A stretch of DNA of 23,054 bases from a virus, in IMG/VR virus record IMGVR_UViG_3300045825_000395, positions 1 to 23,054 of that record. The stretch is one strand, 5' to 3'. The notes under the pieces were generated by a model, which made no database searches, was not told the DNA's origin, and was given only the letters and a program-made list of their open reading frames with translations. Below, piece by piece: positions 5,840-20,449 of this stretch (its first letter is position 1; each line of letters begins with the position of its first letter). The position numbers were made by a program, and so were the translations under genes.

Positions 5840-8783
5840 AGCCGCCGCCGCCGCCCTGGCCGACTTCGCGTTCGAGGTGGGCGCCAACACCATTGGCGCT
5901 TACCTCACGTTCTACGGCGCCGACATCCTCACCGCCGCGGCGGTGGCGTCGTCGGTCTACAGCCTGCGCGAAGACCAGCGCAAGGCGCGCAACCGCCAGC
6001 TGTCCGACTACAACGCCAGCCTCAAAGACCGCTACGTGATGGTGCGCAGCACCACCGAGCCGCGCGCCATCGTGCTGGGCCGGCAGCGCGTGAGCGGCCC
6101 CGTGGCCTACATCGGCAGCTACGGCACCAACCGTGAACACCTGGTGCTGTGCGTCATCCTGGCCGCGCACCAGATCGACGCGGTGGAGGCCATCTACTTC
6201 GACGACGAACAGGTCACCCTGGACGGCAGCGGCAACGTGCTGGCCGTGAACCGGCGCGACCTGTTCACCCTGAGCGGCACCGGCGCGGCCTTCACGCTCA
6301 GCTCGGCGCCCAACGCCGCCACCGTGGCGGCCGTGGTGGCCTACGGCAGCAGCAACGTCGCGCTGGGCGTCAGCGTGGCGGGCAGCGTGGTCACCGTCAG
6401 CGGCGGCACCGCCGGGCTGACCGGCACCGTCACCATCACCTACCAGCCGGCGCAGAGCCCCTACACGTCGTACCCCGTCACTGACGCCACCACCACCGTG
6501 GCGCTGAACGGCAGCGGCAACGGCAGCGTGGTGCTGCCCACGCCGCCCGTGGCCGGCAGCGTGCATGTGCTGTACGAATCCGGCGGCGGAGACACCCTGC
6601 AGCAGGCCGCGCTGGACGCCTACTTCAGCCTGGCCGGCAGCACGGTGACGGTGACCGGGGCCCCGGTCACCAGCGCCACCGCCACCGTCAGCTACCAGAC
6701 CACCGGCGCCAACACCAGCAAGGCGCGCGTGCGCAGCTACCTGGGCGCCCCGGGCCAGGCGGCCGACGCGGCCATGATCACCAACCTGCCGGGCGTGTGG
6801 GACAGCAGCCATACTCTCAGCGGCCTGGCCTACCTGGTGGTCGAGCTGGACTACGACACCGACGCCTTCCCCAGCGGGCTGCCCAACGTGTCGGCCCAGA
6901 TCCGCGGGGCGCTGTGCTATGACCCGCGCAGCGGCGCCACCGTCTGGACGCAGAACCCCGCGTTGCACATGCGCCACGTGGCCACGCACGCCCTGCTGGG
7001 CCGCATGAGCACCGCGGTGGTGAACGACACGGCCATCGCCGTGGCCGCCAACATCTGCGACACCAGCACCGCCTACGTGGTGAACGGGCAGACCTACACC
7101 CGGCCGCTGTACCAGAGCGGCCTGGTGGTGAAGACCAGCACGCGCGCCAAGGACGCGCTGGACGACCTGGCCAAGGCCATGTGCGGTGACTGGACCTTCA
7201 ACGGCGGCACCTTCCGCGTGCGGGCCGGCGCCTACGTCACCCCGCTGCAGACGCTGGACGAAAGCTGGCTGGCCGGCGGCTCGCCCATCACGGTGCAGAC
7301 GGCCACCGCCCGGCCCGACCTGGTCAACAACATCTCGGGCCGCTTCCTGGACGAGCAGCACGACTACGTGGAAGTGCAGTACCCGCGCGTGGTGTCCAGC
7401 ACCTACCAGGCCATCGACGGGGCCGACCTGCCCATGGACATGCCGCTCAACGCGGTGACCTTCAGCGGCCAGGCGCAGCAGGTGGTGGCCGCCCGCATGC
7501 GCTACGTGCGCGCGGGCCTGCGCTTCAGCGTGCTGTGCAACATGGCCGCCTACGCGGTGGAGGTGTTCGACACCCTCTACGTCACGCTGCCGCGCTTCGG
7601 CTGGGTGGCCAAGGTCTTCGAGGTGCTGGACATCAGCTACACGGTGGACGGCGGCAGCCTGCTGACGCTGAAGGCCACCGACCCCAGCATCTGGGCCCTG
7701 GGCACCAGTTTCAGCGCCCCGGCGATGAGCGCCAACACCCTGTTCCCCAGCCCCTGGCAGGTGCCCACCATTGCGGGCCTCACGTGCGCCAGCGGCACCG
7801 GGCAGCTGCTGAAGATGGCCGACGGCACCGTGCTCACCCGCGTGCAGGTCACATGGACGGCCGTCACCGACGCCCTGGTGCTGCAGGGCGGCGGCGTGGA
7901 CGTGCGCTACGGTCTGGCCGGCACGGCCGAAGCCACCTGGGACACCGTCACCGCCGAACGCGGGCAGAGCACCATCTACCTCACCAGGAACATCCGCGAA
8001 GGGCTCATCTACCTCATCAAGGCCCGCGCGGCCAACGGGCTGGTGAACGGCGTGTGGAGCGCCCCGGTGGCGCACCAGGTGGTGGGCAAGAGCGCCGCGC
8101 CCAGCGCCGTGGCCGGCCTGGCCGTGGCCGGCATCCCCGGCGGCGTGCAGGTCACCTGGACGCCCAACGCCGATGTCGACTACCTGGAAACCGAGGTGCG
8201 CTACGGCGCCAGCTGGGCCGCCGGCACGCAGATCTTCCGCGGCGCGGCGGCCGGTTTCGTGTGGCCCTGGCCGGCGGCGGCCAGCTACACGGTGCGCGTG
8301 AAGCACCGCGACACCAGCAAGAACGAAAGCGCCGAGAGCACGGCGGCTATCACGGTGGGCACCAGCAGCCTGATCGACACGGCGCAGGTGAATGCCAACG
8401 CGGCCACTAAGGTGACGCAGGACACCTACGACTTCGCCGGCGCTTCATCGGGCGGCGGCTCCAACATCGTGCAGCGTACGGTGAACGTGACGCCGGCGGC
8501 GGACTGCACCATCGAATTCACCGCCACGCTGAACGCCAGCGTTGTGCTGGGCGACTCCGGCAACAGCCTGGGCTGGTACTACACCCCATCAGGCGGCAGC
8601 GCCACGGTGCTGGGCGGCAGCGCCACCAACAGCACGGCCCGGCAGGACTTCATCTGCAGCAGCAGCTTCGCGGCCACTGGCGGCGTGGCCATCGCGTTCG
8701 AGCTGCGCACCAACGTGGCCGGCGGCAACCCCAACATCCTGCTGAACAAGAGCTCGATGCGCATCACGGAAGTCAAGCGATGA
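5832..8783 (+). CDS. tail tip / host specificity protein (J-like)
   Basis: 983-residue central tip protein. I place the start at GTG 5832 because GGAGGG lies 7 bases upstream and the 80 codons before it overlap the previous gene in a Trp/Arg/Pro-rich frame. The first 35 residues are hydrophobic; RAIVLGRQRV and GPVAYIGSYG (about residues 70-100) are typical of J-like tip proteins. Two fibronectin type III-like domains lie near residues 642-750 and 753-840, and the C-terminal 140 residues are Ser/Gly/Thr-rich and probably bind the receptor. It likely decides host range. The next gene overlaps by ATGA. Confidence 0.8.
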   Translation: MPEAAAAALADFAFEVGANTIGAYLTFYGADILTAAAVASSVYSLREDQRKARNRQLSDYNASLKDRYVMVRSTTEPRAIVLGRQRVSGPVAYIGSYGTNREHLVLCVILAAHQIDAVEAIYFDDEQVTLDGSGNVLAVNRRDLFTLSGTGAAFTLSSAPNAATVAAVVAYGSSNVALGVSVAGSVVTVSGGTAGLTGTVTITYQPAQSPYTSYPVTDATTTVALNGSGNGSVVLPTPPVAGSVHVLYESGGGDTLQQAALDAYFSLAGSTVTVTGAPVTSATATVSYQTTGANTSKARVRSYLGAPGQAADAAMITNLPGVWDSSHTLSGLAYLVVELDYDTDAFPSGLPNVSAQIRGALCYDPRSGATVWTQNPALHMRHVATHALLGRMSTAVVNDTAIAVAANICDTSTAYVVNGQTYTRPLYQSGLVVKTSTRAKDALDDLAKAMCGDWTFNGGTFRVRAGAYVTPLQTLDESWLAGGSPITVQTATARPDLVNNISGRFLDEQHDYVEVQYPRVVSSTYQAIDGADLPMDMPLNAVTFSGQAQQVVAARMRYVRAGLRFSVLCNMAAYAVEVFDTLYVTLPRFGWVAKVFEVLDISYTVDGGSLLTLKATDPSIWALGTSFSAPAMSANTLFPSPWQVPTIAGLTCASGTGQLLKMADGTVLTRVQVTWTAVTDALVLQGGGVDVRYGLAGTAEATWDTVTAERGQSTIYLTRNIREGLIYLIKARAANGLVNGVWSAPVAHQVVGKSAAPSAVAGLAVAGIPGGVQVTWTPNADVDYLETEVRYGASWAAGTQIFRGAAAGFVWPWPAAASYTVRVKHRDTSKNESAESTAAITVGTSSLIDTAQVNANAATKVTQDTYDFAGASSGGGSNIVQRTVNVTPAADCTIEFTATLNASVVLGDSGNSLGWYYTPSGGSATVLGGSATNSTARQDFICSSSFAATGGVAIAFELRTNVAGGNPNILLNKSSMRITEVKR

Positions 8784-17745: not shown

Positions 17746-18366
17746 TCAGTGGTCGTCGGGCTCGAGCCGTCCCTTGTACACGGCTAGCACCTGCAGGCCC
17801 TCTTCAGTGCTGGCGAGGCTGATGAAAGCCGAGTTTGTCGGCATGGCAAGCCATTGGCCGGGCTCGCGTCCCTGGTGACAGATGCGCGCGTGCAAGGTGC
17901 CATGTCGGTCACGCAGCAGCACGATGCGACCCGGTGCTATACGTCGCCGCGTCGTCCAGACGATCTCTGTGCCCTTGGGAAATTCAGGCGCAAGCGCATC
18001 GTCGGGTAGGGCTGCTCGAAAGATTTCAGGCACCGGCAACTTCATCAGATCCTCCCAGATCATCAATGGGAGGTCATCAGAATCCGTGGGGTGGCTCACT
18101 GGACGAGCCACCGTGTAGGCGGCCGGAGCTTCCCCCGCACCTTGATGCTGTTGGTCCATCCAGCCGGGTGCGTGGCCAGCGGCGCGCTCGATCGCGGCGG
18201 CCAGGTCATCGCCCATGCCGCGCCGCCCGGCGCGGACATTGGACAGATGAGCCTTCATCTTCGGCTTGTCGATCAAGCGCGCCAATTCGGCGGGGCCGCC
18301 GATCTCGGGATCGGCCAGCACCAGCTCAAGGTTGGTGCGGCGTAAGACCTGACGGGGGCTGGACAT
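17746..18366 (-). CDS. CI-like phage repressor with degenerate S24 domain
   Basis: 206 residues from ATG 18366 (GTG 18372 is possible; SD weak). Residues about 10-65 hold a lambda-repressor-like helix-turn-helix (ELARLIDKPKMKAHLSNVRAG). The C-terminal half has the shape of a LexA/CI S24 domain (LPDDALAPEFPKGTEIVW, APGRIVLLRD...HARICHQ, LQVLAVYKG). Where S24 peptidases have D-S-M this protein has DDA, and the usual Lys is replaced near LHARIC. It may thus dimerise yet not self-cleave. It is divergent from the Cro-like gene over an operator-bearing promoter region, the lambda immunity layout. Confidence 0.8.
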   Translation of the reverse strand: MSSPRQVLRRTNLELVLADPEIGGPAELARLIDKPKMKAHLSNVRAGRRGMGDDLAAAIERAAGHAPGWMDQQHQGAGEAPAAYTVARPVSHPTDSDDLPLMIWEDLMKLPVPEIFRAALPDDALAPEFPKGTEIVWTTRRRIAPGRIVLLRDRHGTLHARICHQGREPGQWLAMPTNSAFISLASTEEGLQVLAVYKGRLEPDDH

Positions 18367-18390: not shown

Positions 18391-18419
18391 TTGTCTACGC
18401 GCTAAGTATGCAGTATGCT
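18391..18419 (+). promoter_or_regulatory. rightward early promoter (PR-like)
   Basis: -35 TTGTCT (18391-18396, 4 of 6), -10 TATGCT (18414-18419, 4 of 6), spacing 17. Predicted start near 18426, only about 4 bases before the Cro-like ATG at 18430, so the mRNA may be nearly leaderless. The 16-mer operator candidate at 18403-18418 covers its spacer and -10. Confidence 0.55.
18403..18418. promoter_or_regulatory. candidate operator at the rightward promoter
   Basis: TAAGTATGCAGTATGC matches the leftward operator 16-mer at 12 of 16 positions and shares its TGCA centre. AGTATGC is also repeated in tandem here (18405 and 18412), and the 9-mer GCAGTATGC occurs only here and at 17263 as far as I could read. 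It lies 37 bases before the repressor start. Confidence 0.5.
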
Positions 18420-18429
18420 CATCGTCCAA

Positions 18430-18738
18430 ATGAGCAGCATGCCTACCTCCAGCCTGAAGTCCTTCCTGGACCAATTGCCCGACGGCGGCGTCACCGCACT
18501 CGCGGGGCGCTTGGGTATTCATCGCGTCTACCTTTCACAGTTGGCCGCCCGGCTCGACGGTCGGGAGCCGAGTCCAGCCTTGTGCGTGCGGATCGAGAGG
18601 GAGACCGATCGTGCCGTGTGCCGTTGGTCGCTGCGCCCCGGGGACTGGCACCTCATCTGGCCCGAGCTGGTGAGCGACGAGCACCCGGCGCCCACCGCCA
18701 TCGAACCCACCGCCCAGGAGGTGACCCGTGCAGCGTGA
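18430..18738 (+). CDS. Cro-like / YdaS-type transcriptional regulator
   Basis: 102 residues from ATG 18430 (ATG 18439 is the alternative; neither has an SD). LKSFLDQLPDGGVTALAGRL...HRVYLSQLAARLDGREPSP is the YdaS/Cro helix-turn-helix pattern, and RWSLRPGDWHLIWPELV is typical of the C-terminal end of this family. It sits divergent from the repressor, as Cro does, and would repress early promoters in lytic growth. The last 15 codons lie in a 46-bp sequence duplicated 399 bases downstream. Confidence 0.85.
   Translation: MSSMPTSSLKSFLDQLPDGGVTALAGRLGIHRVYLSQLAARLDGREPSPALCVRIERETDRAVCRWSLRPGDWHLIWPELVSDEHPAPTAIEPTAQEVTRAA
18689..18734 (+). repeat. 46-bp direct repeat, copy 1
   Basis: Matches 19088-19133 at 45 of 46 positions by eye (only 18710 C versus 19109 T). 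It holds the end of the Cro-like coding sequence, a strong AGGAGGTGA SD site and the GTG start of the next gene. Confidence 0.9.
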
Positions 18739-18922
18739 GCGCGCGGCCGTGCCCGTGGTGGTCGAGGTCAGTGAAGGTCGATGGACCGCTTCGGTAGTGA
18801 TCCCGACGTCAACTGATCCGCAAGAGTACGAAGCGCGTCGGCTGTTCTTTGAGCGTCTCCTGTCGCAAGGCACACCCGCAATCCGGTGGTGGGCGCCGCG
18901 TGGGACTGGAGGTCGAGCATGA
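18728..18922 (+). CDS. small protein of unknown function, antisense-overlapped
   Basis: 64 residues from GTG 18728, with AGGAGGTGA a few bases upstream; it overlaps the Cro-like stop. Sequence VPVVVEVSEGRWTASVVIPT then EYEARRLFFERLLSQG suggests a strand-strand-helix fold. From 18768 to its end it overlaps the leftward gene 18768-19028. Third-position GC is lower in the overlap than in unshared coding, as expected if both strands are constrained. Function unknown. Confidence 0.5.
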   Translation: MQRERAAVPVVVEVSEGRWTASVVIPTSTDPQEYEARRLFFERLLSQGTPAIRWWAPRGTGGRA

Positions 18923-19028
18923 CGCCCAGGCCTTCGGTGTCGAAGTGCACGGCCAGCACGTGCTGCACCAGGAAGAGTTCCAGCGTGATGTTTGGCGGCT
19001 GCGGTGGCATGTCTAGATCGTTTCTCAT
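18768..19028 (-). CDS. small leftward protein with structured leader (unit 1)
   Basis: 86 residues (MRNDLDMPPQPPNITLELFL...). GGAGGG lies 5 bases before ATG 19028. Residues 13-40 (ITLELFLVQHVLAVHF, TEGLGVMLDL) are well-formed with almost all codons ending in G or C; the part overlapped by the rightward gene keeps an open frame with looser codons. It sits against the direction of the rightward early operon, as a moron would. Family not recognised. The leader is a long hairpin shared with the gene at 19188. Confidence 0.6.
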   Translation of the reverse strand: MRNDLDMPPQPPNITLELFLVQHVLAVHFDTEGLGVMLDLQSHAAPTTGLRVCLATGDAQRTADALRTLADQLTSGSLPKRSIDLH

Positions 19029-19091
19029 GGGGGCCCTCCTCGGGCTGGCGGTTGTGGTGATTGCCAGCATAAGCCGGGGAGGGCGCCCGCC
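19026..19091 (-). promoter_or_regulatory. conserved hairpin leader, copy A (SD-sequestering candidate)
   Basis: Nested stems: GCCCTCC 19033-19039 with GGAGGGC 19078-19084; CGG 19041-19043 with CCG 19074-19076; GCTGGC 19044-19049 with GCCAGC 19063-19068; an asymmetric bulge ATAAG. In the minus-strand mRNA the SD GGAGGG of the 86-residue gene is in the outer stem. Copy B at 19485-19550 keeps all three stems with roughly 55 of 67 aligned positions identical by eye. Confidence 0.6.
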
Positions 19092-19133
19092 CACCGCCAT
19101 CGAACCCATCGCCCAGGAGGTGACCCGTGCAGC
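19088..19133 (+). repeat. 46-bp direct repeat, copy 2
   Basis: 45 of 46 identical to 18689-18734. Here no regulator gene precedes it: the bases that encode the end of the Cro-like protein in copy 1 are left without a gene body, directly against hairpin copy A. The SD and GTG are kept and start the 77-residue gene. Confidence 0.9.
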
Positions 19134-19360
19134 TTGACCAGCACTTTGCGGATCTGTATCGGCTTTGGCGCCCCCGGCGCAGGCCTCTTAACCGTCGGAC
19201 CGTGGCGGCGCGAGCGCCGGCGCATCGGAAGTTGCGTCCAGTTGCTGCAGCAGTGCCGCCAGCACTGTCTCGTGCAGAAGTGATTGAACTAATGCGGCAG
19301 CAGCAACGGCAAATCCTGAAGGCGATCCGTCGCATGCACTTGCAGGGATGGGCACCGTGA
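19127..19360 (+). CDS. small basic protein of unknown function, antisense-overlapped
   Basis: 77 residues from GTG 19127, using the same AGGAGGTGA cassette as the gene at 18728. The first half is Arg/Pro-rich (YRLWRPRRRPLNRRT), the second a helix SRAEVIELMRQQQRQILKAI. Basic and small, it could bind nucleic acid. Residues from 19188 on are shared with the leftward gene 19188-19487. Not similar in sequence to the 64-residue gene in the matching slot of unit 1. Confidence 0.5.
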   Translation: MQLDQHFADLYRLWRPRRRPLNRRTVAARAPAHRKLRPVAAAVPPALSRAEVIELMRQQQRQILKAIRRMHLQGWAP

Positions 19361-19487
19361 TGCTGATGGCAGCCGGCCCGAATGCCGGCTCGTCCTGCTG
19401 GGCCAGTCGGACCGAGAGCGTGGCATATGCCCGCGTGCTGTCCGCCGGGTCGAACGTCAGTTTTAGCAGATCGTATTTGAGTGTCAT
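19188..19487 (-). CDS. small leftward protein with structured leader (unit 2)
   Basis: 99 residues (MTLKYDLLKLTFDPADSTRA...). GGAGGG lies 5 bases before ATG 19487. Residues 1-50 are strand-rich with G/C-ending codons; the C-terminal half, which overlaps the rightward gene, is Ala/Leu-helical with looser codons. Same layout as unit 1, but the proteins are not clearly alike. Family not recognised. Confidence 0.6.
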   Translation of the reverse strand: MTLKYDLLKLTFDPADSTRAYATLSVRLAQQDEPAFGPAAISITVPIPASACDGSPSGFAVAAAALVQSLLHETVLAALLQQLDATSDAPALAPPRSDG

Positions 19488-19550
19488 GGGAGCCCTCCTT
19501 CGGGCTGGTGGTTGGGGAATCGCCAGCGTAACCGTTGGAGGGCGCCCGCC
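19485..19550 (-). promoter_or_regulatory. conserved hairpin leader, copy B
   Basis: GCCCTCC 19492-19498 pairs with GGAGGGC 19537-19543; CGG 19501-19503 with CCG 19532-19534; GCTGG 19504-19508 with CCAGC 19523-19527; bulge GTAA. It precedes ATG 19487 and would hide its SD. The sixth inner pair is G-C in copy A and T/G here: a wobble on the plus strand, a mismatch on the minus, so the working strand is not settled. Confidence 0.6.
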
Positions 19551-19881: not shown

Positions 19882-20143
19882 ATGGTGCGCCTTCTGGCCC
19901 TGCTTTTCCCCTTCAGCCACGCCGGCACAGCCGTTGCCGGCCGCAGTGTGGCGACGCTTCAGGCCGCACGTCCGTGCGGCGCCGTACTGAGTGCGCCAGC
20001 GTACATAGGTGTCTCCGGCTCGCATTGGCACTGGCCTACCCAGCTGCCGCACTTCTCCTCCCTTGGCGCGGCGCGAGCCTTTGCCCCGGGCCTTCGGGCT
20101 CGGGGCTTCTTCTTCAACCTCTACTGATCGGCGTGGTGTCGTC
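19882..20143. other. non-coding region upstream of cII
   Basis: 262 bases with no convincing gene. An open rightward frame (19882-20127) contains the terminator below and is Phe/Ala-rich without an SD. A leftward frame from 20145 is Arg/Gly/Lys-rich with a poor SD. The region has a 7-bp hairpin at 19963-19980 (GCCGCAC/GTGCGGC) and the UUCG-loop terminator at 20083. A leftward PRE-like transcript would cross it. Confidence 0.5.
20083..20115 (+). terminator. intrinsic terminator with UUCG loop before cII (tR1-like)
   Basis: GCCCCGGGCC (20083-20092) pairs with GGCTCGGGGC (20097-20106) with one G-T pair; the loop TTCG is closed by C-G, a very stable tetraloop. TTCTTCTTC follows. Position between the small early genes and cII is that of lambda tR1, which limits cII and replication transcripts unless antitermination occurs. 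Confidence 0.7.
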
Positions 20144-20449
20144 ATGGCTGCAGTGTCTTCGCCCCCACCTGAAAGAGCCCGCAAGACAGTGCAAGTCGTC
20201 TTGCAGCGCCTGCAAGAGCCTGGAATGGGCGTTGCACTGGCCGCCTCAATGGGGGTGAGCGAGAGCACGGTCAGCCGCTTCAAGACCGACCGGCTGGAGG
20301 AGGCCGCCATGTTTCTGGCCCATCTCGGGCTGAAGGTGGTGCCGGCCGAGTTCAAGTGCGTGGAGCCTTCGGCCTATGCCTTCCTGACGGCCACGCACGA
20401 GAAGGTGATGCGCGTGGCGCCGCAGCTGATCTGGGAGGCCGACGCATGA
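20144..20449 (+). CDS. cII: CII-like transcriptional activator
   Basis: 101 residues from ATG 20144. VVLQRLQEPGMGVALAASMGVSESTVSRFKTDRLEEAAMFLAHLGLKVV (described here in parts: helix-turn-helix ALAASMGVSESTVSRFK, residues about 31-47, then the LEEAAMFLAHLGLKVV helix-strand) matches the phage CII family. CII activates PRE, int and antisense promoters to favour lysogeny. The gene carries GCAA-N6-GCAA near its start, the minus-strand form of the lambda CII site. The SD is weak. The next gene overlaps by ATGA. Confidence 0.85.
   Translation: MAAVSSPPPERARKTVQVVLQRLQEPGMGVALAASMGVSESTVSRFKTDRLEEAAMFLAHLGLKVVPAEFKCVEPSAYAFLTATHEKVMRVAPQLIWEADA
20181..20216 (-). promoter_or_regulatory. cluster of CII-type TTGC half-sites (PRE-like candidate)
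   Basis: On the minus strand TTGC-N6-TTGC occupies 20194-20181, the exact spacing of lambda CII sites. A CTTGCAG/CTGCAAG palindrome at 20200-20216 adds two more half-sites. Same-strand GCAAG motifs start at 20181, 20191 and 20212, about one and two helical turns apart. No good -10 is seen 17 bases after the N6 hexamer, so promoter strength is uncertain. Confidence 0.5.

Follow-up and report, generated by a model that had tools for sequence, protein, structure and literature searches.

A previously unnamed hairpin RNA element tied to a modular cargo slot between cro and cII in temperate phages of Burkholderiales-type bacteria

What does a small gene do that runs against the early operon of a temperate phage, and why would the same arrangement be laid down twice in a row around two different genes? 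This question was raised by a 23,054-nt stretch of viral DNA (IMG/VR record IMGVR_UViG_3300045825_000395, positions 1 to 23,054), here called the window. The window is a 23-kb virus contig, the left half of which carries tail genes and an integrase. A lambda-like immunity region lies at 17.7-20.7 kb; it encodes CI-like, Cro/YdaS-like, and CII-like proteins and shows the order by which we recognise such a region, with cI and cro diverging and with cII and the replication genes behind cro. The two tandem units were found at the positions given in a preliminary description of this DNA, 18689-19087 and 19088-19550. In each unit a leftward open reading frame (ORF) overlaps a short rightward ORF in antisense, by 155 nt in unit 1 and by 173 nt in unit 2; both overlaps had been claimed earlier and follow from the ORF coordinates in Table 1. 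The units open with a 50-bp direct repeat, and the hairpins themselves form a 67-nt direct repeat (19025-19091 and 19484-19550) with 72% ungapped identity. Both hairpins fold better than dinucleotide shuffles, more strongly on the plus strand (z = -2.65 and -5.19) than on the minus strand (z = -1.13 and -2.71). No DNA similarity to the window region or to the hairpin was detected in phage and plasmid records. The rightward ORF of 103 aa located behind hairpin 2 had no relatives among phage records; it is missing from L106, the nearest relative of the window, whose CII is 78% identical to the window CII.

Table 1. Features of the immunity region of the window (plus strand, rightward; minus strand, leftward).
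Feature	Position	Strand	Description
CI-like repressor	17746-18366	-	phrog_12107 transcriptional repressor, E 1.6e-11; start at 18366 probable
Cro/YdaS-like regulator	18415-18738	+	phrog_35, E 7.5e-14; Pfam YdaS_toxin, E 5e-6 (below cut-off)
First copy of cro 3' end ("cassette")	18689-18738	+	Embedded AGGAGG and GTGCAGCGTGA
Short rightward ORF, unit 1	18728-18922	+	Coupled to cro stop; doubtful gene
Cargo gene 1, 86 aa	18768-19028	-	ATG preceded by AGGAGGGCCCCC; coding signal
Putative antisense hairpin RNA 1	19026-19091	+	CAU, stem 19029-19088, tail RCC 19089-19091; complementary to cargo 1 RBS and start; R2 model match 69.9 bits
Second copy of cro 3' end, unit 2 start	19088-19137	+	96% identical to 18689-18738
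Short rightward ORF, unit 2	19127-19360	+	Doubtful gene
Cargo gene 2, 99 aa	19188-19487	-	ATG preceded by AAGGAGGGCTCCC; weak overall codon signal
Putative antisense hairpin RNA 2	19485-19550	+	CAU, stem 19488-19547, tail RCC 19548-19550; complementary to cargo 2 RBS and start; R2 model match 63.5 bits
Rightward ORF, 103 aa	19570-19881	+	Between hairpin 2 and terminator
tR1-like intrinsic terminator of rightward transcript	20081-20113	+	Just before cII
CII-like activator	20144-20449	+	phrog_725, E 5e-17; ~40% identical to Pseudomonas phage D3 CII
Candidate CII box of pE/PRE	20181-20194	-	TTGC-N6-TTGC at cII start, as in phage D3

Relatives of the hairpin were searched for with sequence patterns and with a covariance model, the latter as the preliminary description had proposed. 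The first hairpin pattern returned 14 matches, none of them true. A pattern of hairpin arm plus start codon gave mostly true relatives in viral contigs, and a second hairpin pattern that did not require a Shine-Dalgarno (SD) sequence or ATG added further members, which still show an SD at the element together with a start codon, once GTG and otherwise ATG. The covariance model located copies in phage and prophage records, always in the same slot: 1-3 copies in 40/40 records, in one orientation and in one cluster per record. The window hairpins belong to a family of 74-nt elements present in about 45 virus or prophage records with 1-3 copies each, and no Rfam family matches the element. The two hairpins are far beyond chance, since about 45 further records contain the element and compensatory changes are seen among the copies. 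Seven records kept outside model building, among them L106 and the Mu-like L116, contain the same element in the same placement with a leftward cargo ORF of 52-125 aa, and the ORF starts at the element in 8 of 8 copies. In L116 (G731) the element (7031-7106) has a largely rewritten outer stem and sits with a leftward 71-aa gene just before a transposase-like gene of 671 aa; this phage looks Mu-like. Loop identity was 0.77 within one phage versus 0.54 between phages (L048, L059, L020, and L047), with differing cargo, and either gene conversion or a partner that reads the loop could account for this likeness.

The layout cI (leftward), cro (rightward), small gene with hairpin (leftward), CII-like gene (rightward), and replication genes is seen in almost every sufficiently flanked record, and a homologous cro was found upstream of the element at many loci. 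The CI, Cro, and CII proteins at element loci are of many unrelated types. About a dozen loci, with the window among them, have small gene and hairpin more than once. The conserved hairpin at the leftward start and the repeated plan, both proposed earlier, recur in many unrelated phages. The preliminary description had regarded the absence of related phages with this plan as an argument against itself; since the same plan was found in many unrelated phages, this objection falls away. We are practically certain that the family exists and that its placement is fixed, and we concluded that the 74-nt hairpin is an RNA element without an earlier name that goes together with a modular cargo slot. 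The element is carried by temperate phages of Burkholderiales-type bacteria. When bacterial genomes were scanned by pattern, it was detected in Pelomonas, in Piscinibacter defluvii, and in a Lysobacterales MAG, the last with the element on two separate contigs. By covariance model it occurs in 7/251 genomes of the Piscinibacter family (Burkholderiales); beyond the centre genome itself, sampling the order yielded 0 more genomes and sampling the class 1, and a broad host range was rejected on these counts.

The end of each hairpin coincides exactly with the ribosome-binding site (RBS) and ATG of a leftward gene, whose product measures 52-176 aa. An ORF begins at all 42 elements of the model set examined in this way; these ORFs are 59-176 aa long (median 88), and their composition by codon position is normal. 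The idea of a constant frame with differing cargo is borne out by the 47 model-set cargo genes, which fall into 33 clusters, 25 of them singletons, and nearly all of which lack an annotated function. The proposed modular cargo site in the early operon needs one correction: the cargo is modular, but the leftward genes are antisense to the rightward early operon rather than members of it. Neither cargo gene of the window had a close protein relative in viral contigs, nor did cargo 2 have one in phage records; a single comparison of cargo 2 with the first L106 cargo gave no homology, with the L106 query coordinates off the gene frame. Pfam and PHROGs searches of the cargo returned a few marginal or unnamed matches and a PADLOC scan only a few marginal ones. 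The sole cargo family with relatives in named phages is the class of L028, L061, L064, and L067 (phrog_1244), which is related to JBD30_030 of DMS3-like Pseudomonas phages and has no known function. JBD30_030 (L104, 2498-2992) is a lone gene against the direction of its operon without a hairpin, possibly a moron. Substitutions between related cargo genes are in several cases mostly at third positions (28/18/41 for L032 versus L066), as expected of coding sequence. An anti-host or anti-defence role of the cargo, as suggested earlier, is speculative.

The rightward side of the units required a different reading. A separate 46-bp cassette with SD and GTG start had been described at the head of each unit. 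The repeat and its RBS and GTG are real, but the block does not stand apart from cro: AGGAGG-N6-GTGCAGC-N-TGA closes that gene, and the final cro codons contain the RBS and the overlapping GTG of the coupled rightward ORF. The cro-end block recurs 83-134 nt past the first hairpin start in seven phages (the window, L106, L030, L021, L047, L025, and L109) and opens a second unit in six of them, one hairpin being found in L109. The units therefore have constant borders, the cro end and the hairpin, and variable contents. As described earlier, codons of the leftward genes end less often in G or C inside the overlaps (GC3 from 0.80 to 0.67 and from 0.76 to 0.54). It was further claimed that both strands of the overlaps are constrained as coding sequence, and this we could not support. 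The leftward genes carry a codon-usage coding signal in 47/47 cases; the rightward ORFs show one before the overlap in nearly all cases, and it is lost within the overlap in most. The rightward frames opposite the window cargo genes are no longer than synonymous resampling gives, so their openness alone is no evidence for rightward genes. We regard the rightward ORFs as translated starts of doubtful gene status.

Which strand of the hairpin is under selection was examined by base-pair analysis. RNAalifold produced no useful structure from the raw MAFFT alignment, and the fold was therefore set by hand and tested by pair counts and slid controls. In the alignment of 53 elements, which was fitted to the proposed structure so that pair counts are raised, 93% of the cells of the 23 pairs are paired, and both partners have changed in 20/23 pairs. 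Covariation scored 0.284, compared with 0.108 after shuffling and at most 0.065 for slid partners. The non-Watson-Crick stem cells in the gene-strand alignment are C-A in 53 cases and G-U in 3; in the alignment to the model of the pR (rightward) strand, 89 G-U cells were counted on the pR strand versus 12 on the gene strand. The G-U polarity is consistent in 16/17 pairs and in 42/43 informative sequences, and it is the same at stem pairs that are free of SD constraint. The pR strand also folds more stably in 49/53 elements, and the apical extension covaries on that strand (helix 4; GGUU/AACC, GUC/GAC, and UGAU/AUCA). A C-A mismatch read from the opposite strand is a G-U pair, and the polarity therefore identifies the pR-strand RNA as the selected molecule. 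The hairpin had been described as a leader of the leftward gene, and the base-pair evidence places the selected fold on the opposite strand. We consider it very likely, from these alignments, that pR is the folded strand, the RNA of which matches the cargo RBS precisely in antisense; a folded single strand of DNA with G-T pairs would, however, show an identical strand polarity.

On the pR RNA the stem begins with G in 52/53 elements and is directly followed by an unpaired tail, R in 48/53, C in 53/53, and C in 50/53, for which no function is apparent on the gene strand. Bacterial RNase P reads RCC(A) behind an acceptor-like stem (PMC11143913; PMC12710915), and the C4 antisense RNA of phages P1 and P7 is reported as an RNase P substrate that is cut at the GG start of its stem (Hartmann et al. 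1995, as cited in PMC5320573). By analogy, the 3-nt tail and the likeness in shape suggest that the pR element may be cleaved by RNase P. The resemblance to C4 (RF01695) extends to location, form, and complementarity. Like C4, the element is an immunity-region RNA on the early transcript of temperate phages; it has a long stem that starts with GG after AU, a hairpin followed by AACCC, and an RCC-like 3' tail; and it is antisense to an RBS, in this case with complementarity to the cargo RBS that is exact by position. The element consists of an outer stem and one apical hairpin, whereas C4 has stems P1, P2, and P3, of which P2 is absent here (C4 anatomy: PMC5320573). Its complement is the gene on the opposite strand, whereas C4 has separate targets on the same transcript; in a search for a1/a2-type targets, the best complementary stretches within 2 kb were no longer than those of shuffled queries. 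The Rfam C4 model scored 27.1 and 25.4 bits on the pR strand of two elements, below the cut-off of 45, and had no match in the window. Assignment of the element to C4 was rejected because of the sub-threshold score, the missing stem, the lack of separate targets, and the presence of C4 and the new element as distinct copies in one record, L045. The canonical C4 of L045 (5773-5864, minus strand, 56 bits) has an isrK-like match just upstream, and ATTGGCGT-type sequences, complementary to the ACGCCAAT of this C4, flank it on both sides. We think that the element probably works like C4.

Transcription signals were inspected on both strands. Behind the element, the pR strand has a terminator-like hairpin in 21/36 records, versus 3 for the other strand. 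In the window, positions 20046-20113 (plus strand) gave sub-threshold Rfam matches to Burkholderia anti-hemB (E 0.0017) and Betaproteobacteria toxic sRNA, which probably reflect a shared terminator shape. A constant pR-strand block, TGTCTCC ... GGTGCCGGCCTATCCGGC ... CTCCTCCC, lies between the element and the terminator, past the last hairpin, in the window (20008-20062), L025, L032, L046, L051, L059, and L106, and may form another RNA component of this leader; several records have a constant block TGTCTCC ... GGCCTATCC ... CTCCTCC ahead of the terminator-like hairpin. Leftward promoters for the cargo are weakly indicated by a small rise of -35/-10-like sites 100-200 nt upstream. Pseudomonas phage D3 has an annotated leftward pE with a CII box, TTGC-N6-TTGC, inside cII, and L106 contains this motif at the same place as the window; taken by itself, with two matches seen versus 1.0 expected, the window motif is not above chance. 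Tandem leftward TTACCAGTTGA repeats stand directly before the cII start in L041, L066, L025, L019, and L052, and other loci have the palindromes TTATCACTG and CTCAACACC just 5' of the CII-like gene; these are probably activator or operator sites of a pRE-like promoter. The hairpin itself was considered as a promoter, with TAYGCT as the -10 box, and rejected, as it has no -35 box and the element shows no excess of promoter-like sites.

We propose that the cro-cII site of a lambda-like temperate phage serves as a cargo slot, in which the RBS and start of each leftward gene would be covered by a folded antisense RNA on the pR transcript, made up of stem, apical hairpin, and 3' RCC. With pR active in the lytic programme the antisense RNA would be made, host RNase P would probably cut it at CAU^GGG, like the C4 RNA of P1/P7, and the product would pair with the complementary leader of the cargo mRNA and prevent cargo translation, although the stable self-fold of the pR RNA can slow such pairing. 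With pR off, a leftward transcript, started at a CII-type pE/PRE towards cI or at a separate promoter, would allow the cargo to be made. Cargo expression is predicted in lysogens or at establishment, the pattern of a conversion gene. Recombination at the cro 3' end and at the hairpin, the constant borders, may swap or duplicate the units. As deduced from sequence, this whole chain, with silencing by the pR RNA in lytic growth and leftward expression otherwise, has in our estimate a probability of about 0.5.

In a different reading, the cis leader of the preliminary description, the hairpin acts in the cargo mRNA and the SD is hidden in its 3' arm until a signal opens it (thermosensor, riboswitch, or protein). 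In nearly all copies the SD AGGAGGG does lie within the stem with the ATG right after it, and the fold of the gene strand likewise surpasses that of shuffles (z = -2.4). This reading is nevertheless unlikely, given stem mismatches on the gene strand that are C-A and not G-U, the greater stability of the pR strand, and a conserved GGY before the stem (RCC on the other strand) that would be roleless there. A fold on the pR strand between cro and a terminator is also what one would look for in a nut- or put-like RNA that acts in the nascent pR transcript for read-through of the tR1-like terminator, with the overlap of the cargo start being incidental; in lambda, nutR lies between cro and a terminator. 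Antiterminators of this type require copies on both pL and pR, but no pL-side copy was found in the 40 records, in which the 1-3 matches each are all in the cro-cII slot, and membership was rejected. Moreover, every copy has its own RBS, ATG, and cargo, none of which antitermination needs, and several records are without a detected terminator; we give this reading a low probability.

Single-stranded DNA is compatible with a strand-biased fold as well, through G-T pairs, and the hairpin could then be an attC-like site for cassette exchange. Tandem units with unrelated small genes fit this picture, as does the somewhat greater likeness of copies in one phage (loops, 0.77 versus 0.54). However, the element is found at the 5' end of a gene with RBS and ATG, whereas attC sits behind its gene; the arms are of the GGGCGCCC type, without a GTTRRRY/RYYYAAC core; there are at most three units per phage; and the unpaired RCC tail suits RNA processing better. 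Membership of integron attC was rejected on the missing core and the gene start at the element, and we judge an attC-like role to be improbable. Ordinary overlapping ORFs with a chance inverted repeat and no function deserve mention because GC-rich DNA yields long open antisense frames by chance. For the hairpin and the leftward genes this is already refuted by the compensatory changes, the invariable placement, and the held-out matches, and it may apply to the 3' parts of the rightward ORFs; as an account of the whole locus it has hardly any credit.

The proposed antisense slot shares traits with several known systems. The cargo resembles phage morons or lysogenic conversion genes, which are small accessory genes that vary between phages and point opposite to the operon around them. 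A classical moron brings a promoter and a terminator of its own, whereas the shared control element here is the antisense RNA. Lambda offers a parallel in the pRE/cI leader and OOP, with leftward transcription over cro towards cI and antisense control around cII; to our knowledge, no gene is present in the cro-cII part of the lambda pRE leader. In Pseudomonas phage D3, with its related CII and annotated pE, cro and cII are adjacent without cargo. The SAS/ESAS elements of cluster K mycobacteriophages, also inverted-repeat elements directly at the starts of many small non-structural genes, consist of a 13-bp SAS and 17-bp repeats in 11-19 copies per genome, and their function is not known (PMC3203893). 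They differ in sequence and hosts, are not described as antisense to a regulatory operon, and were rejected as an identity for the element, since the 13-bp SAS GGGATAGGAGCCC (PMC3203893) does not occur upstream of the starts, where the consensus is GGAGGGCGCCC-ATG.

Whether the unnamed RNA family is a general modular slot, in which antisense transcription from lytic pR gives any cargo lysogeny- or establishment-specific expression, is a tentative proposal to which we assign somewhat less than even odds. If true, the element would be a genomic tag for hidden accessory genes, possibly with anti-phage or anti-defence functions, in Burkholderiales phages. Since the proteins have no sequence in common, such genes are difficult to spot in temperate phages; the 74-position covariance model finds the slot in phages whose CI, Cro, and CII proteins are unrelated, a Mu-like phage included. 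Should the antisense model prove right, an inserted gene would follow the lysis/lysogeny switch without a repressor site of its own, and C4-type, RNase P-linked antisense control would gain a new role.
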